Source of the DNA: a virus
Length of the DNA stretch: 39,057 bases
Reading direction: 5' to 3' (one strand)
IMG/VR virus record: IMGVR_UViG_3300035698_018297
Span: 1 to 39,057 of that record
Made by a program: the position numbers and the translations under genes. Below are positions 7,196-30,635 of the stretch, in pieces (positions within the stretch are counted from its first letter, which is position 1; each line of letters starts with the position of its first letter). The notes under the pieces are model-generated. The model was not told the origin of the DNA and ran no database searches. It saw nothing but the letters and a program-made list of their open reading frames with translations.

Positions 7196-8817
7196 ACGTC
7201 CGAGAACTGAGGCTACGGAACTTCATGGTCCACGATGATACGACCGTCGAGCTGCCCGAGACCGGGCTCGTGAGCGTCACGGGCGCAAACGGCTCTGGGA
7301 AGTCGTCGTTTGTCGAGGGCGTGTCCTGGGGCGCGTGGGGGAAGACGCTGCGCGGCACGACGCCCGTTGTCACCGGCCATGAGGCGTTGGTCGAGCTTGT
7401 GACAGACGAGGTGGAAGTCACGCGCAAGGCGAAGTCCCGGTCCACGCTGAGCTGGCTCCGGCCCGGTGGCGAGGCGACCCCGTGGGAGACGGCCACGAAG
7501 GCGCGCGAGGGGCTGGAGGCGGTGATCGGGACGTGGGACGTGTGGCGCCGCACGAGCGTATTCTCTTCGTCGGACGCTGCCCACCTTTCGCGGGCGTCGG
7601 ACGGCGACCGGAAGAAGTTTCTGGAGCGCGTGCTGGGGCTGGAGCGGTATGACGTGGCCTACAAGGCGTGCCGCGCGGACATGAACGCTACGACGGCGCG
7701 CTCGACGGCGCTGGCGGCGAAGGCGGCGGTTCTGAATGAGCGCCTGCTCGGCGTCCTGGCCCGGCTGGAAGACACGAAGGCTGTCAGAGCTGAGTTGACA
7801 CAAAATCCGGAATCCGAGCCCGGTGATCTCAGCCTCGCGGACACGCAGACCTACTTGAGCGATCTGGAGGTGGAAAAGCGGGAGAACCGCGCGGCTGAGT
7901 CGGCGCTCGTGGCCGACGACGCCACCTTACGGGCGAACGTGCAGCACACGCGCGCTGCGAGTCAGGCGATTGCGGACAAATCGACGTGCCCGACGTGCCG
8001 GCAGCCTGTGCCGGACGAGCTGGTCGAAGAGCTGCAAGCTGAGATGCAGGCGGCAGCGGCGGCCCTGTTCGCGCTTCAGCACGACCATGCGGCCACGACG
8101 CGGGCGCTACAGGACGCGCGGACAGCGATTGAGGCGGAGATTCAGGAGACGCGCGCAGTGCTGAGCCGGCTCGCAGGGGCTCAGGTCGCTCAGGAGCGCA
8201 ATGCGGGCGCTGAGGCGCGTGCTGCGGATCTGTGTGACGAGCTTTTGGAGCAGGCGGGCGCAGTCGAGGACGATCTCGACGAGTTGACGGCAACCATGCG
8301 CGAAGTCGAGGCCGACGTCGAAATCGTCACGGCCGCAGCGACCGTCCTGGGGCTCAAAGGCTTCCGGGCGCAAGTCGTGGCGCAGACGCTCGCGGGGCTG
8401 ACTACGGCCGCCAACGCCGTGTTGCAGCATCTCAGCGGTTCGCAGGACATGCGGATCGCGCTCCGCCCGTACACCGACCGCGCCAGTGGCGTCGTGGACG
8501 AGGCGATCTCACTGGCGGTCGAGGGCGCAGGTGGCGGGCACGGCTACGGGGCTGCGTCCGGCGGTGAGCGGCGGCGGATTGACGTGGCCCTGCTTCTCGC
8601 AGTCGCCCAGATGGTCGCCGGCTCTGGTACGCTCTGGTTCGACGAGCCCTTCGATTCGCTGGACGCCGAGGGCTGCACTCGTGTCGGCCAGTTGCTCGGC
8701 CGGATGGCGGAAGATAGGTGCATCGTAGTTATCTCTCACTCGCCGGACCTTCTGTCGGCGCTGCCGACAACGATGGGGATACGGGTCGGGGAAGGTGGCG
8801 CAGAAACCGTTTTTTGA
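7192..8817 (+). CDS. sbcC: SbcC/gp46-like Rad50-family ATPase subunit
   Basis: A 541-aa SMC-type ATPase, close to T4 gp46 (560 aa) and much shorter than bacterial SbcC. Walker A is GANGSGKS (residues 31-38). The zinc hook CPTC lies at 266-269 between two coiled-coil arms. The ABC signature SGGERRR is near 456 and Walker B with D-loop LWFDEPFDSLD near 481-491. It dimerises through the zinc hook and drives the SbcD nuclease. The last codons and TGA overlap a copy of the dispersed junction element (8810-8835). The AGTTGACAC 9-mer occurs inside the gene at 7793 using the rare codons TTG ACA. Confidence 0.95.
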   Translation: MNVRELRLRNFMVHDDTTVELPETGLVSVTGANGSGKSSFVEGVSWGAWGKTLRGTTPVVTGHEALVELVTDEVEVTRKAKSRSTLSWLRPGGEATPWETATKAREGLEAVIGTWDVWRRTSVFSSSDAAHLSRASDGDRKKFLERVLGLERYDVAYKACRADMNATTARSTALAAKAAVLNERLLGVLARLEDTKAVRAELTQNPESEPGDLSLADTQTYLSDLEVEKRENRAAESALVADDATLRANVQHTRAASQAIADKSTCPTCRQPVPDELVEELQAEMQAAAAALFALQHDHAATTRALQDARTAIEAEIQETRAVLSRLAGAQVAQERNAGAEARAADLCDELLEQAGAVEDDLDELTATMREVEADVEIVTAAATVLGLKGFRAQVVAQTLAGLTTAANAVLQHLSGSQDMRIALRPYTDRASGVVDEAISLAVEGAGGGHGYGAASGGERRRIDVALLLAVAQMVAGSGTLWFDEPFDSLDAEGCTRVGQLLGRMAEDRCIVVISHSPDLLSALPTTMGIRVGEGGAETVF

Positions 8818-8835
8818 AATCGCTCCCCCCTGATC
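8810..8835 (-). repeat. dispersed GATC-ATTTCAAAAAA junction element
   Basis: Read on the minus strand this is GATCAGGGGGGAGC followed by GATTTCAAAAAA. It matches copies at 28605-28630 and, more loosely, 28533-28558 and 10212-10237. A 19-nt core recurs inside a coding region at 19746-19764. The element covers the end of sbcC and precedes the promoter at 8910. Confidence 0.6.
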
Positions 8836-8909
8836 CCCCGCGCTTTTCATTAGAATGAATTGCGTGCCCGCGCGTATAGGCGCCCCCGCCCATGTGAGAA
8901 ACTTAAAAC

Positions 8910-10186: not shown

Positions 10187-10230
10187 CCCCTGGTCGCTCG
10201 CATGTGTGGGCGATCAGGGGGCTCCCTTTT
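10187..10230 (+). terminator. intrinsic terminator after the AAA+ gene
   Basis: CCCCTGGTCGC (10187-10197) pairs with GCGATCAGGGG (10210-10220), an 11-bp stem with one G-U pair, and TTTT follows at 10227-10230. The right arm is part of the GATC...TTTCAAAAAA junction element and leads straight into the next promoter. Confidence 0.6.
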
Positions 10231-14123: not shown

Positions 14124-14384
14124 ATGAACCTGAAAAATCCTGCGTGGTCCTTGCCTGAGCAGTTCGTGCTCGCGCACTTCGCTGAAAACGCCCTGCGTGG
14201 CTACGGGGTTTTCGTCAGCACATTTGCGTGCTCACACTGTTTGAGCCGCAAAACGGCGGTCCTGTTTATCACGCCTCAGCATGTCGTTCTGGTTGACCGA
14301 AAGGTCAAGTATCGCCACACCCTTACCTCGTGCGGGACGTGCGGCCGAGGGAGCGACTTTGTTTCGGTCGTGACCACGGGCTAA
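14124..14384 (+). CDS. small zinc-ribbon protein R1
   Basis: An 86-aa member of the paralogous family that fills 14.1-24.1 kb. The family helix is at residues 13-27 (QFVLAHFAENALRG). The ribbon is C36-x2-C39 and C70-x2-C73, spaced 31 residues apart. CCACGGAG lies upstream of the ATG. It is separated from the rest of the array by the promoter at 14394, so it can be transcribed from upstream before the array is switched on. Confidence 0.75.
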   Translation: MNLKNPAWSLPEQFVLAHFAENALRGYGVFVSTFACSHCLSRKTAVLFITPQHVVLVDRKVKYRHTLTSCGTCGRGSDFVSVVTTG

Positions 14385-14393
14385 ACATATAAC

Positions 14394-14422
14394 TTGACAG
14401 CTTCAGGCTGAAATAGTATAAT
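14394..14422 (+). promoter_or_regulatory. consensus promoter of the rightward zinc-ribbon array, with spacer palindrome
   Basis: TTGACA (14394-14399), exactly 17 bp, TATAAT (14417-14422): a perfect sigma70 consensus, the only one I found here. The spacer contains the palindrome TTCAG-G-CTGAA (14402-14412), a likely operator placed where a bound repressor would block polymerase. It should drive the run of genes from 14455 to at least 18875. Confidence 0.88.
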
Positions 14423-14454
14423 AGAGTCAGGGAGTTAGGGAAGGAAGGTGCTTT

Positions 14455-14694
14455 ATGAAGGTTGATCCGTGCGTTCGCGAGTTGGTTGCAGAGTGCCTGC
14501 TTCTCGGCTTGCTGTCAGTTTTTAAGAGCGGGACTACAGGCGTGAGTTCTGTCCGGTGTAGCAGGTGTGGTGAGCGCGAGCGGCACTTCTACCGGACGTT
14601 GGACTCTTCAACGATAGGCTCTTTTTGCGATGCTTGCGGGGCGTCAGGGTTGTCTGCTGAGCGCCTTACTGCGGTGGTTGAGAGGGGGCGCTGA
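14455..14694 (+). CDS. small zinc-ribbon protein R2
   Basis: A 79-aa protein, first gene behind the consensus promoter. The helix CVRELVAECLLLGLL spans residues 6-20. Knuckles are C35-x2-C38 and C58-x2-C61, a single ribbon, and a short C-terminal helix follows. In this it is closer to the leftward members than to its multi-knuckle neighbours. GGAAGG precedes the ATG. Confidence 0.75.
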   Translation: MKVDPCVRELVAECLLLGLLSVFKSGTTGVSSVRCSRCGERERHFYRTLDSSTIGSFCDACGASGLSAERLTAVVERGR

Positions 14695-14695
14695 G

Positions 14696-15094
14696 ATGCG
14701 GCGCGTAATGCCAGGACAAGGGGCTTTGGAGCTGCCGCTGCCCGCGCTGCCAGAGAGTCTGGTTGCGGACATGGCGGAAAGCATGATCATCAATGACCAC
14801 GAAGTCCGCGCGGACTTCTGTGCGTGTTGCAGGACGGTAACGACGTTCACGGTGATCACGCTCCACCTTCGCGGGCCGGGCGCGGGTCACACAATGCCGG
14901 TGAAGTTCCGTATGTGCTCCGAGTGTGGCGAGCCGTGGGGCTATCACGAGGCGGGCGGGGAGTGCCCGGTTTGTGCGGCGGGCTGGCTGAAACCGATGTT
15001 CAAGCGCACGGCGGGAAGGGGGGCGGTTTGGTGTAGTGGTTGCGGAATAACTTGGTGGTCCGAGGGATCAGGCGTCTGCGATTCCGAAAAATGA
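14696..15094 (+). CDS. small zinc-ribbon protein R3 (four knuckles)
   Basis: A 132-aa protein. After a Pro-rich lead the helix ESLVADMAESMI covers residues 20-31. Four CxxC knuckles follow at 42/45, 74/77, 90/93 and 113/116, enough for two zinc ribbons. ATG 14696 lies one base after the stop of R2, with GAGAGGGGG upstream. It ends with an ATGA overlap into R4. Confidence 0.75.
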   Translation: MRRVMPGQGALELPLPALPESLVADMAESMIINDHEVRADFCACCRTVTTFTVITLHLRGPGAGHTMPVKFRMCSECGEPWGYHEAGGECPVCAAGWLKPMFKRTAGRGAVWCSGCGITWWSEGSGVCDSEK

Positions 15095-15408
15095 AAGAGG
15101 CCATGAAGGCTGAAATCGTGGAGGCCATGCTCAGCGATGAGGTCGCGAAAGGACAGGGTGGTTCGGTTTGCCAGGAATGCGGTCACGACGAGTACGTCAT
15201 GCTGAAACGACGCTCCGAGCAAGGCGCGCTGGCGAGCGTGTTCGTGTGTGCGGGCTGCTCGGACCTTCAAGTGGCTATCGGGGTGTGTGTCAACTGCCGG
15301 AACAGCGTCCGGCTCAAGAGCTTCTGCAAGCTCACGGGCGAGGGAGTCTGCCCTACCTGCGGAGCCATAGGCCGGTGGCACTTGGAGGGCTGGGACGATG
15401 AAGGCTGA
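15091..15408 (+). CDS. small zinc-ribbon protein R4 (four knuckles)
   Basis: A 105-aa protein with helix MKAEIVEAMLSDEVA (residues 5-19) and knuckles at 27/30, 53/56, 66/69 and 87/90. ATG 15091 overlaps the stop of R3 (ATGA). The bases before it (GGATCAGG...GATTCCGAAAA) resemble the dispersed junction element. The codons for V68-N69 lie in the only minus-strand AGTTGACAC site (15287-15295). Confidence 0.75.
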   Translation: MKEAMKAEIVEAMLSDEVAKGQGGSVCQECGHDEYVMLKRRSEQGALASVFVCAGCSDLQVAIGVCVNCRNSVRLKSFCKLTGEGVCPTCGAIGRWHLEGWDDEG

Positions 15409-15724
15409 CGAGCTTCAGGAGGCGTTTCGGGCCATCGTCACGGAGGCTCTGCTAGAGGGGAGCCCGGTCCTGTTCCCGCTGTCCCGCGCCTGCCCGCACT
15501 GTTTCGGAACGCAGGGCCTTTTGGTCCGGCTGAACGGCAACGCGGCCGACGTGTGCTTGGAGTGCTGCCGGCCGGTAGGTGTCAACGCAGTGTGCAAGGC
15601 GTGCAAAGCACACAGAATCATGATCCCGCTGTTCGATGGCCGCTGGTTGGCCTGCCCGGTGTGTTACGGACGACAGCCGTGGCTGCTTGGGCTGGAAGGG
15701 CTGAGGCTATGCGCGGCAAGTTGA
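15398..15724 (+). CDS. small zinc-ribbon protein R5 (four knuckles)
   Basis: A 108-aa protein, helix FRAIVTEALLEGS (residues 10-22), knuckles at 32/35, 53/56, 66/69 and 86/89. The spacing of the last three pairs is nearly that of R4, so R4 and R5 look like a recent pair. GGAGGG precedes the ATG. It overlaps R4 by 11 nt and R6 by 16 nt. Confidence 0.75.
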   Translation: MKADELQEAFRAIVTEALLEGSPVLFPLSRACPHCFGTQGLLVRLNGNAADVCLECCRPVGVNAVCKACKAHRIMIPLFDGRWLACPVCYGRQPWLLGLEGLRLCAAS

Positions 15725-15978
15725 TAGACCCTGAAGCGATCCGCGCGGATCTGCTCGCGCATTTCGCAGAATTGACGATGGCCGGAGAGTCTTCCGGGGC
15801 GCTCGTTGCTGACCATATGCCGTGCGGGCTCTGCGGCGGCTACACCTTTTCAATCGTTGGGTCGCCGCTCCTGCCCGAAGAGTATTTCGTTTGCCGTAAC
15901 TGTGGCGAGCCCTTGTGGCGCTACAGCGGCGGCACGGCCAAATGCTGGAATGGGATGAGACCTGATGTCGAAGCGTGA
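15709..15978 (+). CDS. small zinc-ribbon protein R6
   Basis: An 89-aa protein, helix IRADLLAHFAELTMAG (residues 11-26), knuckles at 39/42 and 62/65. A lone C79 remains where R4 and R5 have a complete third knuckle, so this looks like a C-terminally shortened four-knuckle type. GGAAGGG and GAGG lie upstream of ATG 15709. Confidence 0.72.
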   Translation: MRGKLIDPEAIRADLLAHFAELTMAGESSGALVADHMPCGLCGGYTFSIVGSPLLPEEYFVCRNCGEPLWRYSGGTAKCWNGMRPDVEA

Positions 15979-16261
15979 GCGACTGGCTTTGTTGGCCGAA
16001 ACGCTACTCAACCCCGACGCGCGGACGTTCGAGCTGGGCCAGGGGTGCTTTTTCTGCCATTCACACGAGGTGGCGCTGTGGATGACGGATCGTTGCCAGG
16101 GCGACGACGTTCACGCGCGCTGTCTCGGCTGCGGGCGCGAGCGAGGGCTCATGCGGTGCTCATACTGCGGCATGATGGCGAAGCATCTGTTCACGGTCTG
16201 GGGCACGGCGAAGTGTACGGCGTGCCGCGATGAGGTCGGTCTACGAGGAACGAGCGTCTGA
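15965..16261 (+). CDS. small zinc-ribbon protein R7 (four knuckles)
   Basis: A 98-aa protein, helix RLALLAETLLNP (residues 6-17), knuckles at 28/31, 53/56, 65/68 and 84/87. It overlaps R6 by 14 nt with GGGATGAGA as ribosome site. The stop is followed within 10 nt by the GTG start of R8. Confidence 0.75.
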   Translation: MSKRERLALLAETLLNPDARTFELGQGCFFCHSHEVALWMTDRCQGDDVHARCLGCGRERGLMRCSYCGMMAKHLFTVWGTAKCTACRDEVGLRGTSV

Positions 16262-16271
16262 GGGGGATCAG

Positions 16272-16567
16272 GTGGACACGATTCGAGAATATGTGCTGGC
16301 CTTCGTCGCCGAAGAGACCCTGCGAGGCTTCAAACCGCCGCCGCAGGAAATCAAGCGGTACCGGCTGCAAGATCCGCTGGTTACGTGCCACCACTGCGGC
16401 GGGGATCAGGTGTTCTACATGGCCTGCGAGTTCGCGTTTGGCAAGGACGTGGCCGTGTGCTCTAGCTGCGGAACGCCGCGCGAGTTCATCGGACTCTGTT
16501 CGAGCACAAGGGCGGAAATCAGTACGCCTGCCGCGTCTGCCACGGCCCGCACACTATCGGCGGCTGA
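16272..16567 (+). pseudogene. zinc-ribbon protein R8, frameshifted near 16490
   Basis: From GTG 16272 (after GAGGGGGATCAG) the frame gives the helix YVLAFVAEETLRG (residues 7-19) and knuckles 39/42 and 63/66. It then drifts into a Ser/Ala-rich tail and would stop only at 16685, deep inside R9. In the frame one base back, codons from about 16496 read LFEHKGGNQYACRVCHGP, with the expected third knuckle, and end at TGA 16565-16567. That is exactly 12 nt before the GTG of R9, the same spacing seen before R8. One base has therefore been lost, or the sequence has an indel error. No slippery heptamer is visible, so programmed frameshifting is less likely. Confidence 0.6.
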
Positions 16568-16578
16568 AGGGGGATCAG

Positions 16579-16938
16579 GTGGACGCGATTCGAGAAAAGC
16601 TGAGCGCCGAAATGGCGGAACGCGCCATCGCCGGGCTGGTCAATGCCAGGGTCGAGACCGGCCGATTCTGTCTCGTCTGTGGTAGCTGGGAGCTGGTTCA
16701 GGTGGTGCTGGTCGGTCACGAGCTGGGACGGGTGCTCGGCGTGAGCACGCTGGCCTGTTCGAGCTGCGGACACCCGAGCGTCTTCTACGCGCGGTGCGAT
16801 TGCACGGCCGGCGTTGGCACAAACTGGCGAGCCAGTAACTCGCACACCTACGAGTGTATGACGTGCGGGAAACGGTCAACAATCCGCGACCTTACAGGGT
16901 ACGACACCGACTCAGTTGACAATAACCGGGAAGGGTAA
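16579..16938 (+). CDS. small zinc-ribbon protein R9 (four knuckles)
   Basis: A 119-aa protein from GTG 16579, preceded by GGGGGATCAG as in R8; the first codons of R8 and R9 are nearly identical at DNA level, a sign of recent duplication. The helix KLSAEMAERAIAG spans residues 7-19, with knuckles at 31/34, 60/63, 73/75 (CDC, one residue short) and 93/96. The stop TAA is one base from the ATG of R10. Confidence 0.75.
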   Translation: MDAIREKLSAEMAERAIAGLVNARVETGRFCLVCGSWELVQVVLVGHELGRVLGVSTLACSSCGHPSVFYARCDCTAGVGTNWRASNSHTYECMTCGKRSTIRDLTGYDTDSVDNNREG

Positions 16939-16939
16939 G

Positions 16940-17317
16940 ATGGGAGTCCGAAAGAGCACAGTTCACGAGCGCAGGCGGGTGCTGGCCTTGATCGCCGAGG
17001 CCACGCTTATCAGGCCGGAAGGGTTGTTCATGCGGCCCACGGCTCGGCGCTGCACTTGCGGCCACATGAGCGCCTACCCGGCTGTGGTGCCCAAGATTCA
17101 GCGTGACCCGAAGCGCAAGCACCGATGGCTGGCGCTCTGCCCGGAGTGCGGGCACTGGTGGCGTCAGCCGTTTGGTCCGTGGGCCGTGTGCCACGACGCC
17201 ATCATGGTGCTCAATCACTCGCCCGTTTCGCGCTTCGCACGGGTACGAGTGGCAGGGGCCGACCCCGCACGGGCTGGCCGGTGGGCCTTGGGGCCGAAGC
17301 AGGGGGCTCCAGAATGA
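16940..17317 (+). CDS. small zinc-ribbon protein R10
   Basis: A 125-aa protein, helix RRVLALIAEATLIRP (residues 12-26). The ribbon is C38-x-C40 (shortened knuckle) and C67-x2-C70. After residue 90 the sequence turns into an Ala/Arg/Val-rich, low-information tail without knuckles, which could itself be the product of an old frameshift. GGGAAGGG precedes ATG 16940, and the stop overlaps the R11 start (ATGA). Confidence 0.7.
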   Translation: MGVRKSTVHERRRVLALIAEATLIRPEGLFMRPTARRCTCGHMSAYPAVVPKIQRDPKRKHRWLALCPECGHWWRQPFGPWAVCHDAIMVLNHSPVSRFARVRVAGADPARAGRWALGPKQGAPE

Positions 17318-17477
17318 GGTCGCCGAGAAAGGTTTTCCTCGACTGGCGCGCTGAGCGCCGGGCAGACGAGGCTAGGTGGCGTGAGTCTACCGCTTTTGCG
17401 AGGGCTGCGGCCAGTACAACGTCGTCGGCCGGAGAACGCGCAATCGCATGAAGTTGCCGCTGGACAGGACGTGGTAA
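17314..17477 (+). pseudogene. zinc-ribbon protein R11, short and frameshifted
   Basis: From ATG 17314 the frame runs 45 codons to a stop at 17451 with no cysteine. One frame over, starting after a TGA at 17382-17384, the DNA encodes VYRFCEGCGQYNVVG and ends at TAA 17475-17477. That TAA overlaps the ATG of R12 by one base, as at intact junctions in this array. The CEGC frame is therefore the likely original C-terminus and an indel lies near 17370-17390. The remnant is shorter than any intact member and lacks a clear first knuckle. Confidence 0.45.
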
Positions 17478-17680
17478 TGGGAGTCTGCCTGACAAAGATT
17501 GCACCTGAGATAGTGGCAGAGGCGAAGGCCAGGGTGGCGGAGGCGTGTCTTTGTGGCAACCCTTGTGTCGTGTCGTCGGCGAATTGTGACTACTGCCACG
17601 CGCGGCAGCGCCTCGCCGAGATTGACGGGAGCATGTACCGCATTTGTGACGGCTGCGGAAACGTGACGTGGTTCGCATGA
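17477..17680 (+). CDS. small zinc-ribbon protein R12
   Basis: A 67-aa protein, the shortest intact member. The helix EIVAEAKARVAEACLCG (residues 11-27) is extended and alanine-rich. Knuckles are at 37/40 and 57/60, and the chain ends soon after. ATG 17477 overlaps the R11 remnant's stop (TAATG); the ribosome site is weak (GGACGTGG). The stop overlaps the ATG of R13. Confidence 0.65.
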   Translation: MGVCLTKIAPEIVAEAKARVAEACLCGNPCVVSSANCDYCHARQRLAEIDGSMYRICDGCGNVTWFA

Positions 17681-17922
17681 CGGCGCAGACGCACACGGTC
17701 AAAGGCGGCTGGTGGATAACGTGGCCGGCTCAGAAGCGGCACAACCTCGCGCTCATAGCTGAGTTGACACTGATTGGCAAGCTCGCGCATTGGATGGACT
17801 GGACGATTCATGCGATGCAGTGTCGGGGCTGCGGACACCGGGGCAAGTTTCCGACCATTCGGGTTCGCGAGGCCCAACAGGAGGCTTGGGTATGCCCGAA
17901 ATGCGGGAAGCGATACTTGTGA
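17677..17922 (+). CDS. small zinc-ribbon protein R13
   Basis: An 81-aa protein with a longer N-terminal lead containing GGWWITW, then the helix HNLALIAELTLIG (residues 22-34). The ribbon is C49/C52 and C73/C76, ending within five residues of the last knuckle. The ELT codons at 17761-17769 contain AGTTGACAC with the rare codons TTG ACA. ATGA overlap with R12. Confidence 0.72.
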   Translation: MTAQTHTVKGGWWITWPAQKRHNLALIAELTLIGKLAHWMDWTIHAMQCRGCGHRGKFPTIRVREAQQEAWVCPKCGKRYL

Positions 17923-17932
17923 GGGGATCAGC

Positions 17933-18289
17933 ATGACGGGATTTCAAGAAACCGTGCTCGCCGGGTTGGCTGAGCTGCGGCTCAAAGGCTTCCTCTCCTC
18001 GCAGGACACGCCCTGGTGCTGTCGTCACTGCTTGGGCGATATGGTGTCGATTCTGGCGGTTGGGCTCGCGGACGACATGGGCAGACAGGTGGAGCTGTTC
18101 GTGTGCGGCACATGCGGCGGGCCGTCTTACGGACGGGCCTACTGCCCGGCCTGCAAGCGCGAGCACATCCTCTCAGTTGACGTAAACGGCACGGCAAGCT
18201 GCCAGACGTGCGGTGAAGAGCTGTATTGGCTGCGTGGTGCGGAAGTGGTGCCGCTTATATCGACGCCTTGGAAGGGATCGGGGTCGTGA
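17933..18289 (+). CDS. small zinc-ribbon protein R14 (four knuckles)
   Basis: A 118-aa protein, helix TVLAGLAELRLKGFL (residues 7-21), knuckles at 30/33, 58/61, 71/74 and 90/93. The spacing of pairs 2-4 matches R15, and the two genes share a near-identical 5' end (GATTTCAAGAAA), so they are sister copies. GAGGGGATCAG precedes the ATG, a version of the junction element. The stop overlaps the GTG of R15. Confidence 0.76.
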   Translation: MTGFQETVLAGLAELRLKGFLSSQDTPWCCRHCLGDMVSILAVGLADDMGRQVELFVCGTCGGPSYGRAYCPACKREHILSVDVNGTASCQTCGEELYWLRGAEVVPLISTPWKGSGS

Positions 18290-18648
18290 GATTTCAAGAA
18301 AAGGTGCTCGCGGCACTGGCCGAGTCACGGTTGTCGGGCGCCACGGACGGTAGGGTGCCGGTGACGTGTTCGGCTTGCCGGGCTAGCTCACAGCTAGTTC
18401 CTGTCGTGTATCAACCGTCCCACGTCGGCGGGGGCCATTCGTTCGTGCTGTATGCGCGCGAGGCTTGCGGGAACGTGAACCATGCAACGGGAGTCTGCCG
18501 AAACTGCGTGACGCGGTATGGAAAGCTGCTCGTGACGGACGGTGGTGTCGTCTACTGTTTCACATGCGGGCAGCCGGTTCCCTGGACGGAAAACGGGGGC
18601 GACGTGGTGCCGCCGCTGAGCGATGCGAAACGAGGGGTGCGGCGATGA
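18286..18648 (+). CDS. small zinc-ribbon protein R15
   Basis: A 120-aa protein from GTG 18286 (GTGA overlap with R14). Helix KVLAALAESRLSG is at residues 6-18. Knuckles are 28/31, 71/74 and 91/94. At the second position only C61 remains (AREACG where R14 has VCGTCG), so one zinc site has probably been lost. The C-terminal tail is basic. Confidence 0.73.
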   Translation: MRFQEKVLAALAESRLSGATDGRVPVTCSACRASSQLVPVVYQPSHVGGGHSFVLYAREACGNVNHATGVCRNCVTRYGKLLVTDGGVVYCFTCGQPVPWTENGGDVVPPLSDAKRGVRR

Positions 18649-18875
18649 TAACGATGCGTGAATTGGCTTGTGCGACCTTGGCGGAAAACGCATTAGGTGG
18701 CAAGGCGTCAGCACACACGGGTATGATGGCAGCGTGTGGGGTGTGTGGCGAGCTGGCTGACATGATTTGGCTGAACGTGGGCGGTAGGGGACGTGGGCGC
18801 TCAGTGCGGTTTTGCGGGGCTTGCGGCTCCGTCACCCCGTCCCACACTCGGTGCGACCAATGTGATTCCCTATAG
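18645..18875 (+). CDS. small zinc-ribbon protein R16
   Basis: A 76-aa protein, helix ACATLAENALGGKA (residues 8-21), knuckles at 31/34, 57/60 and a terminal 70/73. It is the last member of the rightward array and ends three residues after the final knuckle. The ATG overlaps the stop of R15 (ATGA). The next 106 bp contain only a possible promoter. Confidence 0.74.
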   Translation: MITMRELACATLAENALGGKASAHTGMMAACGVCGELADMIWLNVGGRGRGRSVRFCGACGSVTPSHTRCDQCDSL

Positions 18876-18981: not shown

Positions 18982-19875
18982 ATGAAGCCCTACGTGCCAC
19001 GAACGACCGCGATGTCAGAAGACAGGAAGGAAGCGACAAAAGCCAAGGAGAACCGCAAACGTAGACGCCGAACCATGACGTTCACGAAGTACCAGCAGGC
19101 GCTCGACTACTTCAGAGACCTGGGGGACTGTTCGGACGTGAACATATCGGAAGCAAGCCGCGTACTTGGCCTGGAACGGCAGACGGTTTCAAGGGCGCTG
19201 GATCAGGGCTGGATGCAACACAACCCGCCCTGGGTGCCGATAAAGGTTATGATTGCCGACGAACAGAAACGAGCACGAGCAGAAAGGTCGGACTTGCAGC
19301 GGGCACTTGTGAAGGAAGCGGCGAGCATTGCCAAGAAAGCTCAGGAAGACGCTATCAAAGCTCGCGCACAGGAGGGTTTACTGGTCGCAGGAGTGCGTGG
19401 TGCAGCGGGTCGCCTGCTCCAACAGTCCGTTCGGTTGATACAAACTGGCGATGCTCTGGCGAAGGCGATTGAGCCCCGGTTGATACGAATTGCCGAGTTG
19501 GCCGCTCAGGGCGATTCGGCCGAAAACCGTCAATCGGTCGGAGACGTGCTCGCGCTCATGGAACGGTTCCTGGGCTTCGCCAAGGGCTCGACTCAGATGG
19601 TACACGAGGCGATGGTGCTCGAACGCAAGTTCCTGGGCGAAGCTGAGGCCGTTCTGGGGGTCAAGTCGGACATGGACTTGCACGAAGCCATCTCGGAGCT
19701 GGCGGCCGCGCATATCACGCTCGGACGGCACGACGGCGGAAATACGAAATCGCTCCCCCCTGATACCGCTCAGCTCCTAGCCGATGCGGGCGTGCCCCTG
19801 ACCCCTGACCAAATGCCAGTTGACACAAACGCGGATATGGAGCTAGTTGATGCAAACTCCAGCGATATGGATTGA
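18982..19875 (+). CDS. HTH protein with long helical region (possible small terminase or DNA-binding scaffold)
   Basis: A 297-aa protein. The N-terminus is strongly basic (ENRKRRRRTM near residue 27). A helix-turn-helix, ISEASRVLGLERQTVSRAL, occupies about residues 55-73. The rest is a long Ala/Lys/Glu-rich helical region, probably coiled coil, with an acidic C-terminus. This domain order resembles phage small terminase subunits, but the large subunit is 12 kb away at 31773, so I hold that open. The 3' part contains a 19-nt match to the junction element (19746-19764) and AGTTGACAC at 19818. ATG 18982 has GGAG 7 nt upstream. Confidence 0.65.
   Translation: MKPYVPRTTAMSEDRKEATKAKENRKRRRRTMTFTKYQQALDYFRDLGDCSDVNISEASRVLGLERQTVSRALDQGWMQHNPPWVPIKVMIADEQKRARAERSDLQRALVKEAASIAKKAQEDAIKARAQEGLLVAGVRGAAGRLLQQSVRLIQTGDALAKAIEPRLIRIAELAAQGDSAENRQSVGDVLALMERFLGFAKGSTQMVHEAMVLERKFLGEAEAVLGVKSDMDLHEAISELAAAHITLGRHDGGNTKSLPPDTAQLLADAGVPLTPDQMPVDTNADMELVDANSSDMD
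19746..19764 (-). repeat. copy of the dispersed junction element inside a gene
   Basis: The plus strand GAAATCGCTCCCCCCTGAT is identical to bases 8816-8834 at the end of sbcC. Here it encodes the KSLPPD segment of the HTH protein, so the element has entered, or arisen in, a coding region. Confidence 0.5.
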
Positions 19876-20200
19876 ACTCTCAACCTCGCAGCTCCTCGCG
19901 CGCTACCTGCGTGAGCGCACGGGCCAGGACTGGAAGGCCATTGAAGGCAAGCCCAGCGGGCGCTTCACGCGGGTACTCGGTACCGTACAGGCTGAGTACG
20001 AAACGTGCCTGATGGCGAGACAGCCTCCCCACTTCGGCGGTTTCATCGCGTGTGACACTGAGAACACCATAGCGGCTCGTGCTACGGGGGCTACGCCTAT
20101 CGAGGCCCTGCGCGCATGGGGGCTCGTGGTGGTGGAACGCTTCGACATGATCTCGGAGATCGTGGAAGATTTGACGGCCCTGGGGATGATGGGGGGCTGA
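19850..20200 (+). CDS. hypothetical protein
   Basis: A 116-aa soluble alpha/beta protein that overlaps the preceding gene by 26 nt. ATG 19850 has GGAG 7 nt upstream (19839-19842). The centre (FGGFIACDTENTIAARATGATPIEALRAWGL) has the look of a small beta-alpha fold. No family recognised. It is the last rightward gene before the convergent junction. Confidence 0.62.
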   Translation: MQTPAIWIELSTSQLLARYLRERTGQDWKAIEGKPSGRFTRVLGTVQAEYETCLMARQPPHFGGFIACDTENTIAARATGATPIEALRAWGLVVVERFDMISEIVEDLTALGMMGG

Positions 20201-20356
20201 AGGGGGGCGAGCCTAGCTCGCAGACTCCTAGCCTAGCTCGTTCGGTTGAGAAAAACGAAATCATGCGCCCCTGATCGCCCACATGCGCGCACGTTACAGT
20301 TGATAGAAACACGCGCGTAAGGGGGGCGGGGGTAAAACTCCCTAAATGGCCTGGGG

Positions 20357-20380
20357 AAAGGGTGATTAACCATCCTTTTT
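20357..20380 (+). terminator. intrinsic terminator at the convergent junction
   Basis: AAAGGGTG (20357-20364) pairs with the complementary arm at 20371-20378 across a 6-nt loop, with one G-U pair, and a T run (20376-20380). It should stop rightward transcription of the array. The rest of 20201-20356 has no gene, but holds CCTAGCTCG repeats near 20210 and 20230 and a degenerate junction element near 20262-20276. Confidence 0.6.
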
Positions 20381-20390
20381 CGTGCGGACT

Positions 20391-20471
20391 TTTTCGCTTT
20401 CAGCGTAGACAGGCAAACTGTTTACCGTGGCCTTTTCGCTTTCAGCGTAGACAGGCAAACTGTTTACCGTG
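20391..20471. repeat. two 39-bp direct repeats, period 42 bp, each with a 15-bp palindrome
   Basis: Copies at 20391-20429 and 20433-20471 are identical over 39 bp and start 42 bp apart, close to four turns of B-DNA. Each contains GGCAAACTGTTTACC (20412-20426 and 20454-20468), a near-palindrome with 7-bp arms and one mismatched pair. The second copy overlaps the stop codon of zinc-ribbon gene L13. The arrangement suggests cooperative protein binding on one face of the helix, or iterons. Confidence 0.85.
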
Positions 20472-20739
20472 ACGAGGGGGCGAGATTCCGAAAAACGGTG
20501 GCAAGGTCGTTAAAAAAGTCTTCCACAGAAAGGATTGCGCTCCCGCAGCCATCGCAAACGAGGATTTCCGCCGCGAAGGGCCATTCGTCTCGCCCAGAGT
20601 CTATCCGCGAGAAGTATTTGACGCCCGTTCCGTGTCCGCAGGCTTCGCAGCCGTGAATGAAGAAGGTTTTACCCTGGCCCACGAAGTCACGGACCGCCGC
20701 CTCGGCGAGCGCAGCCTTCTGGGATTCAGTCAACTGCAA
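20464..20739 (-). CDS. small zinc-ribbon protein L13
   Basis: A 91-aa protein, last gene of the leftward array. The N-terminus MQLTESQKAALAEAAVRDF carries the family helix. Knuckles are at 31/34 and 62/65, followed by the C-terminal helix DFFNDLATVFRNL typical of leftward members. Its stop codon lies within the second 39-bp repeat. It overlaps L12 by 14 nt. Confidence 0.76.
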   Translation of the reverse strand: MQLTESQKAALAEAAVRDFVGQGKTFFIHGCEACGHGTGVKYFSRIDSGRDEWPFAAEILVCDGCGSAILSVEDFFNDLATVFRNLAPSSR

Positions 20740-21082
20740 CAGGGGCCCCCAGATCAGCGGGTTGGGATTTCATAATTTTTCTCAGCAAGGCTTCCAGCCC
20801 GTCGAAAGTATCGCCGGAAGACATAGCGCAAAGCGCAGTCAGCCACTTCGGGAGTCGGGCGAGCGGTAGCGCCTGATTCCATGTCAGAACGTGCAGCCCT
20901 TCCTCGCAGACTACGAACCAAAGCGTGGGGAGCCCGCCGGAACGGGTGCGGGTAGGGGTCATGTAGGCAGTGGCGAAATAGTGGCCGCACTCCTCGCAGA
21001 CTTTGACGGTCCCCAGCGGCGTGAGTATGTTCTTGAGCAGCAGCTCGGAGATGCAGGCTTGGAGGTCTTTAGTTGTCCGCAA
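20726..21082 (-). CDS. zinc-ribbon protein L12, divergent
   Basis: A 118-aa protein if TTG 21082 is the start; no better start codon was found, and the TTG lies next to the stop of L11. The helix DLQACISELLLKNIL (residues 6-20) and first knuckle C29/C32 fit the family. Only C59 of the second knuckle remains. The middle is read in a different frame from the homologous DNA in L6 (see findings), so this copy has probably shifted frame. The C-terminal helix (GLEALLRKIMK) is intact. Confidence 0.58.
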   Translation of the reverse strand: MRTTKDLQACISELLLKNILTPLGTVKVCEECGHYFATAYMTPTRTRSGGLPTLWFVVCEEGLHVLTWNQALPLARLPKWLTALCAMSSGDTFDGLEALLRKIMKSQPADLGAPVAVD

Positions 21083-21326
21083 CAGTGGTCTTCGATTCCA
21101 AATTATGGCCCAGCAGGTGCCGCAGGCGCGGCCAATACTTGCCCTCTGTCCAGTAGGCTCCACAGCCATCGCAAGCCTTAATCCAGGCGTTCGAGCCACA
21201 CCACGCCGATTCCAGCAGCCCGGCGCAGTCGGGGCAGCGGCCGAGCACTTCGTAAAAGCGCACGAGCCCGCACAGCCCGCCTTCGGCGAGCACTGCACGT
21301 TCGTCGTCGGTCAGGTGTGTCGTCAT
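21069..21326 (-). CDS. small zinc-ribbon protein L11
   Basis: An 85-aa protein, helix DERAVLAEGGLCGLV (residues 8-22), knuckles 31/34 and 52/55, C-terminal helix YWPRLRHLLGHNL. The ATG directly abuts the TAA of L10. Downstream it runs 14 nt into the L12 reading frame. Confidence 0.75.
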   Translation of the reverse strand: MTTHLTDDERAVLAEGGLCGLVRFYEVLGRCPDCAGLLESAWCGSNAWIKACDGCGAYWTEGKYWPRLRHLLGHNLESKTTVADN

Positions 21327-21554
21327 TTAGAAGCTCGTCAGGGCGATTGTCAGGAAGAACTTGTTGATTTCGTCCGTGACTCCCATTTCGCACGCTTCGC
21401 AGAAGGGGAGCATCAGGCTAGATACGCGGTCGTAGTGGCGAATGCGCGTGCAACCGCATTCCTTGCAGGCGAGGGTGGACGGAATAATGTTTAGCCTGCC
21501 AACGAGTGTCTTTTCCGCGATGATGGCGCGCTCAATTTCTGTCATTTTCCGCAT
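21327..21554 (-). CDS. small zinc-ribbon protein L10
   Basis: A 75-aa protein, helix EIERAIIAEKTLVGRL (residues 6-21), knuckles 30/33 (with extra C35) and 52/55, C-terminal helix EINKFFLTIAL. ATG 21554 is chosen because GGAGG lies 7 nt upstream. The in-frame ATG 21545 would instead give the ATGA overlap common in the array. Confidence 0.74.
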   Translation of the reverse strand: MRKMTEIERAIIAEKTLVGRLNIIPSTLACKECGCTRIRHYDRVSSLMLPFCEACEMGVTDEINKFFLTIALTSF

Positions 21555-21814
21555 TCAGACGCCTCCAGTGCTCGTTTCAGTTGAGAGAAAAACACACGCT
21601 CGACCGTTTCGTTGGAGCAGATGGCCCGGCAGTGAGAGCACAGCGACAGGGCGCGGTCTATGTGGTGGAGCTGGTCGAGCACGAACACCCCGCCTGACTG
21701 CGTGCGCCCGCACGAGCACATGGCCCCAAAGAAGCTGTCGGTCGTGGTCGTGACGTCGGCCAGCTCGCCTTCCGTGAGCAGCGCCTCTTGCTCGACTGTC
21801 AGGTAGCGCCTCAT
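21542..21814 (-). CDS. small zinc-ribbon protein L9
   Basis: A 90-aa protein, helix VEQEALLTEGELADV (residues 7-21), knuckles 33/35 (CSC) and 59/62, C-terminal helix VFFSQLKRALEAS. ATGA overlap with L8 and 13-nt overlap with L10. Confidence 0.74.
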   Translation of the reverse strand: MRRYLTVEQEALLTEGELADVTTTTDSFFGAMCSCGRTQSGGVFVLDQLHHIDRALSLCSHCRAICSNETVERVFFSQLKRALEASECGK

Positions 21815-22065
21815 TTTCGGCGCGGCCGATTCAGCAACATACCAACCATCTGCCAGAAGTCGCCGAGCGTCCACGAATCGCCGCAGTGCTTGCACAGCTT
21901 CAGCTCATGGCCCCCGGCGCGGGTGCTGTAAACCGTGAGCTGGACGAAACCCGCCCGGAAGCACCGGAAGCAGTTGCAGGTCGCCATTCGTTGCTCGCTC
22001 AGGTTGACGACCCCCTCAATATCAGCTTCCACGAGCAGGGCTTTCCGTTTTTCAGTCAGCTTCAT
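21811..22065 (-). CDS. small zinc-ribbon protein L8
   Basis: An 84-aa protein, N-terminus MKLTEKRKALLVEADIEG almost identical in DNA to the start of L7 and L6. Cysteines at 30, 32 and 35 form the first site and 58/61 the second. The C-terminal helix is DFWQMVGMLLNR with a basic end (RPRRK). It overlaps L7 by 14 nt. Confidence 0.75.
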   Translation of the reverse strand: MKLTEKRKALLVEADIEGVVNLSEQRMATCNCFRCFRAGFVQLTVYSTRAGGHELKLCKHCGDSWTLGDFWQMVGMLLNRPRRK

Positions 22066-22340
22066 CGGGCGGCCCTATCATCCTGTTTTGTATCTCTTCC
22101 TCGATGCACGAGCAGAGCCCTTGCATCTCCCCTGAGACGCGGGCGCAGCCGTCGCAGACGCGCGCCCAGTGTACGACATCGGCATCCGTTCGGGTGTCAA
22201 GCTGGCTCAGCCGTACCCAGTATTCCAGAACCCCCCTCGCCGCAGTTCGAGCAGGTGTCGCCGGCAAGCTTGCCGGTGTCGATGAAACCGTGCAGCACGC
22301 CTCCTACGAGCAGGGCTTTCTGAGTTTCAGTCAGCTTCAT
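22052..22340 (-). pseudogene. zinc-ribbon protein L7, frameshifted at a six-G run
   Basis: From ATG 22340 the frame gives MKLTETQKALLVGGVLHG, knuckle C30/C33 and then stops early (47 aa, TGA at 22197-22199). Removing one G from the six-G run (C6 on the plus strand, 22231-22236) joins it to VLEYWVRLSQLDT, the second knuckle CDGC, and a C-terminal helix ending at 22052, giving a normal-length protein with a normal 14-nt overlap into L8. Either the sequence has a homopolymer error, or the gene is broken or phase-variable at this tract. Confidence 0.62.
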
Positions 22341-22702
22341 CGCGTCAGCTCCGCCCAGGCCGGCAGGTTGATCCTGGCCTCGTCCAGCAGCTCGGAGACG
22401 GACTGCGGGGCCGCGCCCCGCCGGAACGGGTGTGGGTAGGGAATCATGCCGCCACAGCAGCCACAGCAGCCACAGCAGCCCAGCACGGGCGCGGAGTTGT
22501 GCGAGTAGACCAGTGGGTCCGGAATGTCGCCCGCGCAGTGCCCACAGGCGAGGGTGATCATGCCGCTCTTGCGCGTCCTCCGCCCCGCTCCGTCGCGGCC
22601 ATCCCCCTCCGCAGTGTCAAACGGGCTTCCAGGCCGGATAGTGAAGTAGCCCGCGAGCACACACTCAGCGAGCACGGCTTTTTGTGTTTCAGTCAACTGC
22701 AT
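22337..22702 (-). CDS. small zinc-ribbon protein L6 with expanded second knuckle
   Basis: A 121-aa protein, N-terminus MQLTETQKAVLAECVLAG, a long basic loop (residues 27-48), knuckle C53/C56, then GCCGCCGCCGG (residues 75-85) created by three copies of a 9-bp repeat (22452-22478). The C-terminal helix VSELLDEARINL closes the chain. The ATG overlaps the L5 stop by one base (TGATG). Confidence 0.73.
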   Translation of the reverse strand: MQLTETQKAVLAECVLAGYFTIRPGSPFDTAEGDGRDGAGRRTRKSGMITLACGHCAGDIPDPLVYSHNSAPVLGCCGCCGCCGGMIPYPHPFRRGAAPQSVSELLDEARINLPAWAELTR

Positions 22703-23064
22703 CAGGGGGCTCCGATTCCAGAATCTTGGACAGGGTTTCGGTTGCAGGCGATTTCTACCTCGCTCCGCAGTGCCTTGAAGAATCCCTCCCCGGCCGACCC
22801 GTACAGCAAAATGCCGCAGGCGGCGCAGTAGGGCAGAACGCAGTACATCGAATTCAGGCAGTCCCAGACTCTCAGCTCGACGGTTGCGTGGACGCTGCAA
22901 TACGGACAGAACCGCGTTCTACGGGTCTCGGTCAGCAGGTTTAGCAGCTCGCCCTCAGCGATGGCGGCGCGTTGCTCATTGGCGGTCGTGGCCCACTCCG
23001 TGAGTACGTGGCGCAGCCGGGCCTCTGCGAGCAGAGCTTGTTCGCGCTCGTCAAACTCAATCAT
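22702..23064 (-). CDS. small zinc-ribbon protein L5 with duplicated N-terminal helix
   Basis: A 120-aa protein. The family helix occurs twice: EREQALLAEARLRHVL (residues 6-21) and NEQRAAIAEGELLNLL (29-44), as if one gene start had fused onto another. Knuckles are 53/56 and 80/83, with extra cysteines at 69, 75 and 107. The C-terminal helix is GFFKALRSEVE. The leader is a version of the junction element (GATC...GATCTCAAAAATG). Confidence 0.74.
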   Translation of the reverse strand: MIEFDEREQALLAEARLRHVLTEWATTANEQRAAIAEGELLNLLTETRRTRFCPYCSVHATVELRVWDCLNSMYCVLPYCAACGILLYGSAGEGFFKALRSEVEIACNRNPVQDSGIGAP

Positions 23065-23303
23065 TTTTGAGATCCCCTCCCGCTGATCCGCAGCGTTTGC
23101 CAGAACGTGCTTCGGTGGCGCGCGGCCCCGCAGCCCTCGCAGATGTACAGCCAGTCGAGCCCGGTAGCGACAACCCAGTATTCGGCGCGCGGGTGTGTCT
23201 GACGACACTTTGTGCAGAAATCTTCGACGCTTTGGTGCAGCGCGAGCCGCCCATCGAGCAGTCCCTCAGCCAGCTCAGCCCGCTGCCGGTCGGACAGCTT
23301 CAT
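23061..23303 (-). CDS. small zinc-ribbon protein L4
   Basis: An 80-aa protein, N-terminus MKLSDRQRAELAEGLLDGRL, knuckles 30/33 and 55/58, C-terminal helix TFWQTLRIS. ATGA overlaps at both ends. It is the most compact example of the leftward architecture and a good reference for it. Confidence 0.76.
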   Translation of the reverse strand: MKLSDRQRAELAEGLLDGRLALHQSVEDFCTKCRQTHPRAEYWVVATGLDWLYICEGCGAARHRSTFWQTLRISGRGSQK

Positions 23304-23566
23304 TTTGGGCTTCCCGACAGCCGTTGCTTGAGCAGAGCGAAGAAGTCTCGGTCGCCCCAGAAGTTGCAGCAGTTGTCACAAACTGTGAGTTGCTGCCAGG
23401 GCCACCGGCCCTTTCTGGCTGTCCCGGCTTGAATCTCGGTGACTCGCTTGGGGTCCATCACCCCGTACTCGGTCATTGTGACTTCGACGGCGCCCCGGCA
23501 GGAGCAGACGCGGCCTTCGTTGGTGCGGGCCTTCAGCGCGCCGGCCAACACGCCCTCGACCAGCAT
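23300..23566 (-). CDS. small zinc-ribbon protein L3, start codon possibly lost
   Basis: An 88-aa protein from ATG 23566 (MLVEGVLAGAL). The upstream in-frame codons read RVSDTNRA, which align with the first residues of the other members, but no ATG, GTG or TTG precedes them. The original start has probably been lost, leaving a shortened helix. Knuckles are 21/23 (CSC) and 63/66, with the C-terminal helix DFFALLKQRL. A weak ribosome site (TAGGG) is present. Confidence 0.65.
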   Translation of the reverse strand: MLVEGVLAGALKARTNEGRVCSCRGAVEVTMTEYGVMDPKRVTEIQAGTARKGRWPWQQLTVCDNCCNFWGDRDFFALLKQRLSGSPK

Positions 23567-23570
23567 GGCC

Positions 23571-23837
23571 CTATTCGTGTCGGAGACTCGTAAGCAGCGC
23601 CATCCTTTCCGTCGCCCAGCGAAGGGCGCTGCCTAGGTGTCGAGGCTTGTCCGGCATGTCTCCGCACAGCGGGCAGTACCGGACGTGGTACGGGTTTCGG
23701 TTCCGCCGTATTTCAGCGAACAGATGAGTCTGATCGCAGTCCGCGCATTTCGTGCCAACGGCCGGCACAAAAACCGAAATCGCGCCCGCCAGATCCGCTT
23801 CGGCCAGGGTCGCCCGCTGTTCGATGGTCAGGTTCAT
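23571..23837 (-). CDS. small zinc-ribbon protein L2
   Basis: An 88-aa protein, N-terminus MNLTIEQRATLAEADLAG, knuckles 31/34 and 55/58, C-terminal helix LGSALRWATERMALL. ATGA overlap with L1. The stop TAG lies 4 nt before the ATG of L3. Confidence 0.75.
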   Translation of the reverse strand: MNLTIEQRATLAEADLAGAISVFVPAVGTKCADCDQTHLFAEIRRNRNPYHVRYCPLCGDMPDKPRHLGSALRWATERMALLTSLRHE

Positions 23838-24091
23838 GCGCCCTTCCGCCCTATGAGCGCCAGCGACCGGCGTATCTGCTGGAAGAACAGGTCTGCGCTG
23901 ACCCGCAAGGGCCGCCCACACTCACACAGGCGGGCGGTGATAAAGCTCGGCCGGTGCGTCATGTATTCGTTGTAGAGGCTCGAACCACAGCTCGGGCAAG
24001 GTGCGGACCCCTTTTTCTGAACGTGGATCAGGACCACTTCGGCCAGCACAGCCTCCGCCAGCATGTCGGATTCCTGCTCGCTGAACTGCAT
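23834..24091 (-). CDS. small zinc-ribbon protein L1
   Basis: An 85-aa protein and the first zinc-ribbon gene of the leftward transcript. N-terminus MQFSEQESDMLAEAVLAEVV, knuckles 32/35 and 56/58 (CEC), C-terminal helix DLFFQQIRRSLAL. Its ATG overlaps the stop of the leader gene at 24091-24351 (ATGA). Confidence 0.75.
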   Translation of the reverse strand: MQFSEQESDMLAEAVLAEVVLIHVQKKGSAPCPSCGSSLYNEYMTHRPSFITARLCECGRPLRVSADLFFQQIRRSLALIGRKGA

Positions 24092-24444: not shown

Positions 24445-24891
24445 CTAGGGAAGCTCGGCCGGAAGCTCGGTCTGCGCGGCAACTAGGGCCGCCTCGCGGA
24501 TAGCTGCGTTGCTCAGTCGAGCGCCCGACTTTGGCTTCGGCTCGGGCTCAGACTCGTCATCGCGTGACAGTGGTGCCGGAGGCTCAGGCGGTGGCGGGGC
24601 CGACGCCACGAGAACGTGCTCGGGCCAGCCGCTCGGCCGGGCCAGCCGCTCGGCCGGGCTCGTCATCGCATCGACCTTTTTGGGCGTCGGGCGCGTAGGC
24701 TCGTCCACGCCCGATGCGTAGCTCAGCACGGCGACTTGGACACGAAGCTGGACGACTTGCTCGCGGAGCATTGTGTACGCCGTGTCCGCGTCCTTGTTGA
24801 GCCAGTTTCCGTTACCGGCGATGGCCGTGAGCATGGTCAGCACGAGGGCCACGAGCTGTGCCCGCGTGCTGAGCGGTTTCTTCTCTGCCAT
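24445..24891 (-). CDS. membrane-anchored Pro-rich protein (spanin- or holin-like)
   Basis: A 148-aa protein: short basic N-terminus, one transmembrane segment (about residues 12-28), a short coiled region (about 40-58) and a long Pro/Glu/Lys/Ala-rich tail. An inner-membrane spanin or an anchored envelope protein would look like this, but no partner gene is evident. A 17-bp tandem duplication (24621-24637, 24638-24654) lies in the tail and shifts frame within itself. GGGAGGAACGTC precedes the ATG. Confidence 0.65.
   Translation of the reverse strand: MAEKKPLSTRAQLVALVLTMLTAIAGNGNWLNKDADTAYTMLREQVVQLRVQVAVLSYASGVDEPTRPTPKKVDAMTSPAERLARPSGWPEHVLVASAPPPPEPPAPLSRDDESEPEPKPKSGARLSNAAIREAALVAAQTELPAELP
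24621..24654. repeat. 17-bp tandem duplication
   Basis: Two exact copies of CGGGCCAGCCGCTCGGC lie head to tail within the gene at 24445-24891. Because 17 is not a multiple of three, the two copies are read in different frames. Confidence 0.8.
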
Positions 24892-27095: not shown

Positions 27096-27149
27096 TTTCA
27101 GACTCCGTGGTTGACGTGAACTGGTTTTTTGAAATCGCACACCCCTGAT

Positions 27150-27175
27150 CCGGGCGGGACTCGCGCCCCGCCCGG
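27150..27175 (-). terminator. stem-loop between leftward genes
   Basis: CCGGGCGGG (27150-27158) pairs with CCCGCCCGG (27167-27175). It lies 7 nt after the stop of the gene at 27183-27650 and forms the stem-loop of another junction element. Confidence 0.6.
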
Positions 27176-28468: not shown

Positions 28469-28523
28469 TTATTTTTATTCTCTACGAGAATAAAAATAAT
28501 ATGCGCGTGAGGCACGCGCATAT
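28469..28523. repeat. two abutting palindromes, one AT-rich and one GC-rich
   Basis: A 14-bp perfect stem of A/T with one GAG/CTC block (28469-28482 and 28486-28499, 3-nt loop) is followed at once by an 11-bp stem, ATATGCGCGTG (28499-28509) with its complement (28513-28523). Both are perfect. They lie between the leftward promoter and rightward genes. A terminator for a leftward antisense transcript, an operator, or an origin element are all possible. Confidence 0.8.
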
Positions 28524-28532
28524 GTGAGGCTG

Positions 28533-28630
28533 GATCGGGGGTCTCGGATTTCAAAAAACCGTTTTGCGCGCCAGCTCGTTGTGCGTTCCTTCTTTATTGG
28601 CCGGGATCAGGGGGGAGTGATTTCAAAAAA
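28533..28630 (+). repeat. two direct copies of the junction element
   Basis: GATCGGGGG...GATTTCAAAAAACC at 28533-28559 and GATCAGGGGGG...GATTTCAAAAAACG at 28605-28632 lie 72 bp apart. The second leads into the promoter at 28639. There is no gene in 28369-28712. Confidence 0.65.
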
Positions 28631-28638
28631 CGTGTTTC

Positions 28639-30585: not shown

Positions 30586-30635
30586 GCGCCCCCGTGAGGA
30601 TCGGGGGCGCGGGATTTCAAAAAAGGAGTCTGAGC
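30586..30635 (+). repeat. 50-bp gene-junction element
   Basis: Stem GCGCCCCCG (30586-30594), 7-nt loop, CGGGGGCGC (30602-30610), then GGGATTTCAAAAAAGGAGTC and TGAGC up to ATG 30636. It works as terminator of the upstream gene and ribosome site of the next. An inverted near-copy lies at 26089-26139. Confidence 0.78.

Follow-up and report, generated by a model that had tools for sequence, protein, structure and literature searches.

A 42-bp tandem duplication at the convergent gene junction of an unclassified tailed phage

In an unclassified tailed phage, a 42-bp segment is duplicated head to tail in the gap between two converging sets of genes. We tentatively place this duplication in the transcription-end zone of a long rightward operon, where each copy of the non-coding segment would form a stem-loop in the rightward RNA.

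The duplicated segment and its surroundings

The window, by which we mean the whole stretch of DNA analyzed, is a 39,057-bp IMG/VR record, a linear contig without terminal repeats. It encodes a set of replication and recombination proteins (DNA polymerase I, a gp32-type SSB, RecA/UvsX, SbcD, SbcC and RusA), an AAA ATPase with a VWA/metallopeptidase-like partner, and the terminase large subunit (TerL). Rightward genes extend to 20200, a leftward set occupies 20464 to about 28.4 kb, and the remaining genes up to the end are again rightward. The repeats sit in the 3'-3' gap at 20201-20463, 3' to both converging genes, and the gene orientations thus bear out the convergent placement given by an earlier, sequence-only reading of this DNA. 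Copy 2 extends into the 3'-terminal codons of the leftward gene, stop included, an overlap which that reading had also described correctly. The features of the junction are as follows:

18982-19875, + strand: TerS-like gene (N-terminal HTH, long helices), whose homologues adjoin terminase large subunit genes
19847-20200, + strand: 117-aa ORF without a family match, the last rightward one before the junction
20388-20471, + strand: two 42-bp units, 40/42 identical, with ACT versus GCC at the 5' edge
20391-20429, + strand: copy 1 of the 39-bp repeat, identical to copy 2
20433-20471, + strand: copy 2 of the 39-bp repeat, containing the TAA stop (20464-20466) of the leftward gene
20464-20739, - strand: small zinc-ribbon-like gene (91 aa) with copy 2 at its 3' end

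Two arrays of small paralogous CxxC (zinc-ribbon-like) proteins also face each other in the window, at 14124-18875 (+) and 20464-24091 (-), and have a common N-terminal 'LAE..L' motif. The array proteins that were scanned gave no significant Pfam or PHROG family match; for the protein of 20464-20739 in particular there was no Pfam match and the PHROG matches were all insignificant. The repeats had been described as lying between these two arrays. This holds for their right neighbor, but on the left side the 117-aa ORF and the TerS-like gene intervene.

Direct comparison of the copies confirms two identical 39-bp repeats with a period of 42 bp. The unit, TTTTCGCTTTCAGCGTAGACAGGCAAACTGTTTACCGTG, matches at 39/39 positions, and 3 bp separate the copies. 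When they are compared as 42-mers (20388-20429 versus 20430-20471), 40/42 positions are the same, and the two differences are both transitions within the first three bases. No other exact short-range direct repeat in the window is as long as the 39-bp pair; next comes a 31-bp overlap that belongs to an 18-bp tandem at 41-89. Chance convergence of the two copies is excluded and one head-to-tail duplication explains them, tandem duplication being the simplest origin of the pair.

Could the duplication be neutral? A recent slippage event that left neither copy functional is, in our judgment, rather unlikely, although it has several points in its favor. The segment is non-coding, and slippage duplications do arise in this genome, since perfect tandems occur elsewhere in it (18-bp at 41-89 and 17-bp at 24621-24659). 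Against neutrality, the differences between the copies are confined to one edge. Both would fall within that 3-bp edge in about 0.3% of cases by chance, or in twice as many if either edge is allowed. Such confinement could mean that the 39 bp are under selection, or that just 39 bp were duplicated and filler was added.

The period of 42 is also divisible by three, and a - strand frame of 47 codons (20366-20509, reading ...TVNSLPVYAESEKATVNSLPVYAESEK...) stays open through both copies, which would make the repeat an in-frame duplication of 14 residues. We set this coding reading aside as barely credible: the frame lacks an ATG start, is one of several that stay open across the repeat, and follows a zinc-ribbon gene of ordinary length without being in frame with it.

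Predicted RNA folding of the junction

Three hairpins are predicted in the rightward RNA of the junction:

20354-20381, + strand: intrinsic-terminator-like hairpin GGGAAAGGGTG-ATTAAC-CATCCTTTTTC, from sequence and fold, for rightward transcripts
20405-20425, + strand: stem-loop of copy 1, GUAGACAG-GCAAA-CUGUUUAC, 8 pairs including one G-U
20447-20467, + strand: stem-loop of copy 2, same as that of copy 1, from the fold

We regard as an intrinsic terminator a stable G+C-containing hairpin with a U run directly after it. The hairpin just upstream of copy 1 has a T run, part of which pairs into the stem. Strict terminator scans did not list the junction, this hairpin included, probably owing to that pairing. 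The stem-loops of the repeats have no canonical U-tract: in copy 1 the stem is followed by CGUGGCC before UUUU, and in copy 2 there is no U run.

The computed folding differs between the strands. As + strand RNA, the region 20345-20475 reaches -47.4 kcal/mol (z -3.83), with 0/200 shuffles as good; as - strand RNA its z is -1.56, with 14/200 shuffles as good. For a single unit the values are -10.8 kcal/mol and z -2.53 on the + strand (1/200 shuffles as good) and z -0.59 on the - strand (51/200). The asymmetry arises because the stems are complete only with G-U pairs on the + strand. In the DNA, the inverted repeat GTAGACAG-GCAAA-CTGTTTAC at 20405-20425 and 20447-20467 has 7/8 Watson-Crick pairs in its arms, which become 8/8 with a G-U pair on the + strand. 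A double-stranded DNA operator would have no need of such pairs. The asymmetry would be more in keeping with an RNA element carried by the rightward transcript than with a symmetric DNA operator, and the significance of the + strand fold also speaks against neutral slippage.

Since the stem-loops of the copies directly follow a terminator-like hairpin, the transcription-end zone is the likeliest location for this segment. We infer that rightward transcripts end at the junction and that the stem-loops contribute, perhaps as extra 3'-end structures or as a backup terminator for the rightward operon. The second copy would probably be redundant.

Binding sites, relatives and the packaging question

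The sequence-only reading had instead favored a protein-binding site. The near-palindromes on which it drew are indeed present in each copy (GGCAAACTGTTTACC, 15 bp, at 20412-20426 and 20454-20468), with 6/7 arm positions matching. We consider it unlikely that the copies are paired DNA sites (operators or iterons) bound by a regulator or replication protein of the phage. This reading is consistent with the 15-bp (6/7) and 21-bp (7/8) near-palindromes in each copy, with two identical sites in register, and with the private intergenic repeats of relatives such as L024 and L031. However, inverted repeats this good are not rare in 39 bp, and the location is a 3'-3' junction where no sigma-70 promoter match was found in the repeats. 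The helical-turn argument of the same reading, which took the 42-bp spacing as placing the sites on one face of the helix, is not evidence either, because a spacing near whole turns arises by chance in roughly 3/10 cases.

Exact matches to the 15-bp near-palindrome in the window are limited to the repeat pair, and when up to 3 mismatches are allowed there are 4 matches against 3.39 expected. For the 39-bp unit, too, the rest of the window yields no convincing partial copy. A repressor operator set was rejected, because the dyad does not recur at any of the window's promoters. For an origin or terminus at the junction, the four-fold-site coding-strand skew in successive blocks (+0.066, +0.214, +0.088, -0.141, +0.079) has no consistent replication-type switch there; with two copies only, an origin with iterons was also rejected. 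A parS-type partition site was discarded, since by inspection the repeat is unlike canonical parS, TGTTTCACGTGAAACA. A ParB-like gene was found at 35006-36082 only, and its matches include DNA methyltransferase as well as ParB-like families. With a palindrome that is neither dispersed nor conserved and with no skew switch, the protein-binding proposal is unsupported, and none of the tests made here points to a protein bound at the repeats.

A near-perfect 25-bp inverted repeat, ATATGCGCGTG-CCT-CACGCGCATAT, lies at 28499-28523 in the A+T-rich divergent promoter region. It is a candidate for an operator or terminator, and a more natural one than the 39-bp repeats.

The repeat appears to be private to this phage. 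Exact-pattern scans gave no match in IMG/VR or in 84,980 genomes, blastn against phages and plasmids returned only insignificant matches, and Rfam only sub-threshold chance matches. Scans of viral contigs with single proteins recovered no relatives; scans with degenerate alignments did, yielding 80 loci through the VWA protein and 66 through the terminase large subunit (146 in total), all related at the family level, with no close relative found. One of them (L027) keeps the gene order polA-ssb-recA-sbcD-sbcC-ATPase-VWA-rusA, and another (L024) has ATPase-VWA-rusA-TerS-TerL. The 39-mer is absent from all 146 loci, and the palindrome is conserved neither in these family-level relatives nor in the databases. 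Judged by the lack of conservation, which the sequence-only reading had itself named as counting against its proposal, a recent private duplication is favored, as neutral slippage would also have it. Against neutral slippage, perfect non-coding duplications are uncommon in related DNA, because 1.38 Mb of the VWA-set loci contains a single non-coding tandem duplication of period 25-80, at 93%, and no perfect one. The duplication is thus unusual, yet looks private.

The relatives carry intergenic repeats of their own, unrelated to the 39-mer. At L024:3631-4066 there are four copies of CCTCAATGATCACGCCGAGTTA (24-bp core) within a region of roughly 1 kb that is poor in long ORFs; a cluster of short-tag repeats upstream of terS in the same locus resembles an inverted repeat next to a small gene, is unrelated to the 39-mer, and was rejected. 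Between 5897 and 11414, L031 has an operator-like palindrome, AGTATAGCCATTGGCTA, at about seven sites, with none expected by chance. Near its TerS gene, L122 has two perfect canonical bacterial parS sites 144 bp apart (L122:1784-1944; G017:C1:782-797, 926-941), and 3' of that gene a roughly 700-bp non-coding region (L122:2590-3000) with many copies of GACTAGCTCGT and CGATATCGAAACG, which is a candidate packaging or origin region.

Could the repeats instead be part of a pac or cos packaging site, recognized by the product of 18982-19875? The sequence-only reading had listed this gene among the HTH genes. The HTH is present, and the family turns out to be TerS-like by neighborhood: in about 30 related loci (including L024, L096, L113 and L122) its members adjoin the gene for the terminase large subunit, usually directly upstream of it. 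We call it TerS-like from this neighborhood and its architecture; the family is unnamed in Pfam and PHROGs, and no family model or structure match confirms the assignment. We keep the packaging reading under consideration because this HTH gene belongs to a TerS-like family, and as a weaker rival because a gene of a terminase-adjoining family lies about 0.5 kb upstream of the repeats. Overall we regard it as very unlikely. The TerL gene of the window is 12 kb away, and a search with the TerS-like fold, predicted at low confidence (mean pLDDT 65), gave no meaningful match and is uninformative.

Three sets of direct repeats surround the start of the small terminase gene in the pac region of SPP1 (PMC4737164), and we therefore counted non-coding direct repeats near TerS genes in the relatives. 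They occur within 1.5 kb of TerS in 3/27 loci (the window, L113 and L122). The two relatives speak for packaging, but the count is not clearly above that elsewhere, and the three repeat sequences are unrelated. In 4 of the 27 loci such repeats lie further from TerS. As near regions make up 18% of the non-coding DNA, the estimated probability of 3/7 near TerS is about 0.1 when the window is counted and about 0.3 when it is left out, which is not significant. Moreover, the TerS of SF6 showed little specificity for the pac repeats (PMC4737164). A more specific version, in which the dyad is the phage-specific recognition site of the separated TerS-like protein and this phage group moved its packaging site along with terS to a convergent junction, 12 kb from terL, we hold to be highly improbable.

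The window also contains a dispersed, asymmetric 28-bp element (consensus GGATCRGGGGGNNGCGATTTCAAAAAAC) in both orientations, with 40 sites above the cut-off of the PWM refinement, compared with 1-4 in Markov simulations at a laxer cut-off. Examples are 8809-8836 (-), 27124-27151 (-), 28604-28631 (+) and 30598-30625 (+). Of the 40 sites, 18 are at most 45 bp from a gene start (5.8 expected), and those at 10211 and 28604 are just upstream of a TTGACA-like -35 box. Two copies lie at the junction:

20250-20277, - strand: copy of the 28-bp element in the same convergent gap, PWM score 20.6
20469-20496, + strand: degenerate copy of the 28-bp element that shares 3 bases with the end of copy 2, PWM score 20

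There was no exact match to the element in viral or genome collections. It is comparable in kind to the stoperators of L5 (PMC9283540) and to the start-associated sequences of cluster K phages (PMC3203893), a sequence relation to either not being established.

By itself, a tandem duplication that is private to one phage and lies in an intergenic gap carries little weight, and we judge the dispersed 28-bp element to be more interesting than the duplication. How convergent phage operons end could be tested at this defined place. Should the junction prove to be a packaging site, the sequence recognized by a TerS-like family, linked here to terminase through gene neighborhood, would thereby be marked.

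Comparison with known systems

Phage iterons and paired operators are direct repeats with embedded dyads. The repeats described here share this organization, but there are two copies only, with no promoter match, adjacent replication gene or further sites. The likeness to the SPP1 pac region is the presence of non-coding direct repeats near a TerS-like gene (PMC4737164). In SPP1, however, the repeats span the terS promoters and start (PMC4737164), whereas here they lie 0.5 kb beyond the 3' end of the TerS-like gene, with an ORF between and TerL 12 kb away. In Pseudomonas phage tf, a rho-independent bidirectional terminator is predicted between convergent transcription units (PMC3517423). Predicted hairpins in the gap between two convergent transcription units are common to both phages. 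The arrangement differs in that tf has one predicted terminator, whereas at this junction a terminator-like hairpin acting in one direction would be followed by a duplicated stem-loop without a canonical U-tract.
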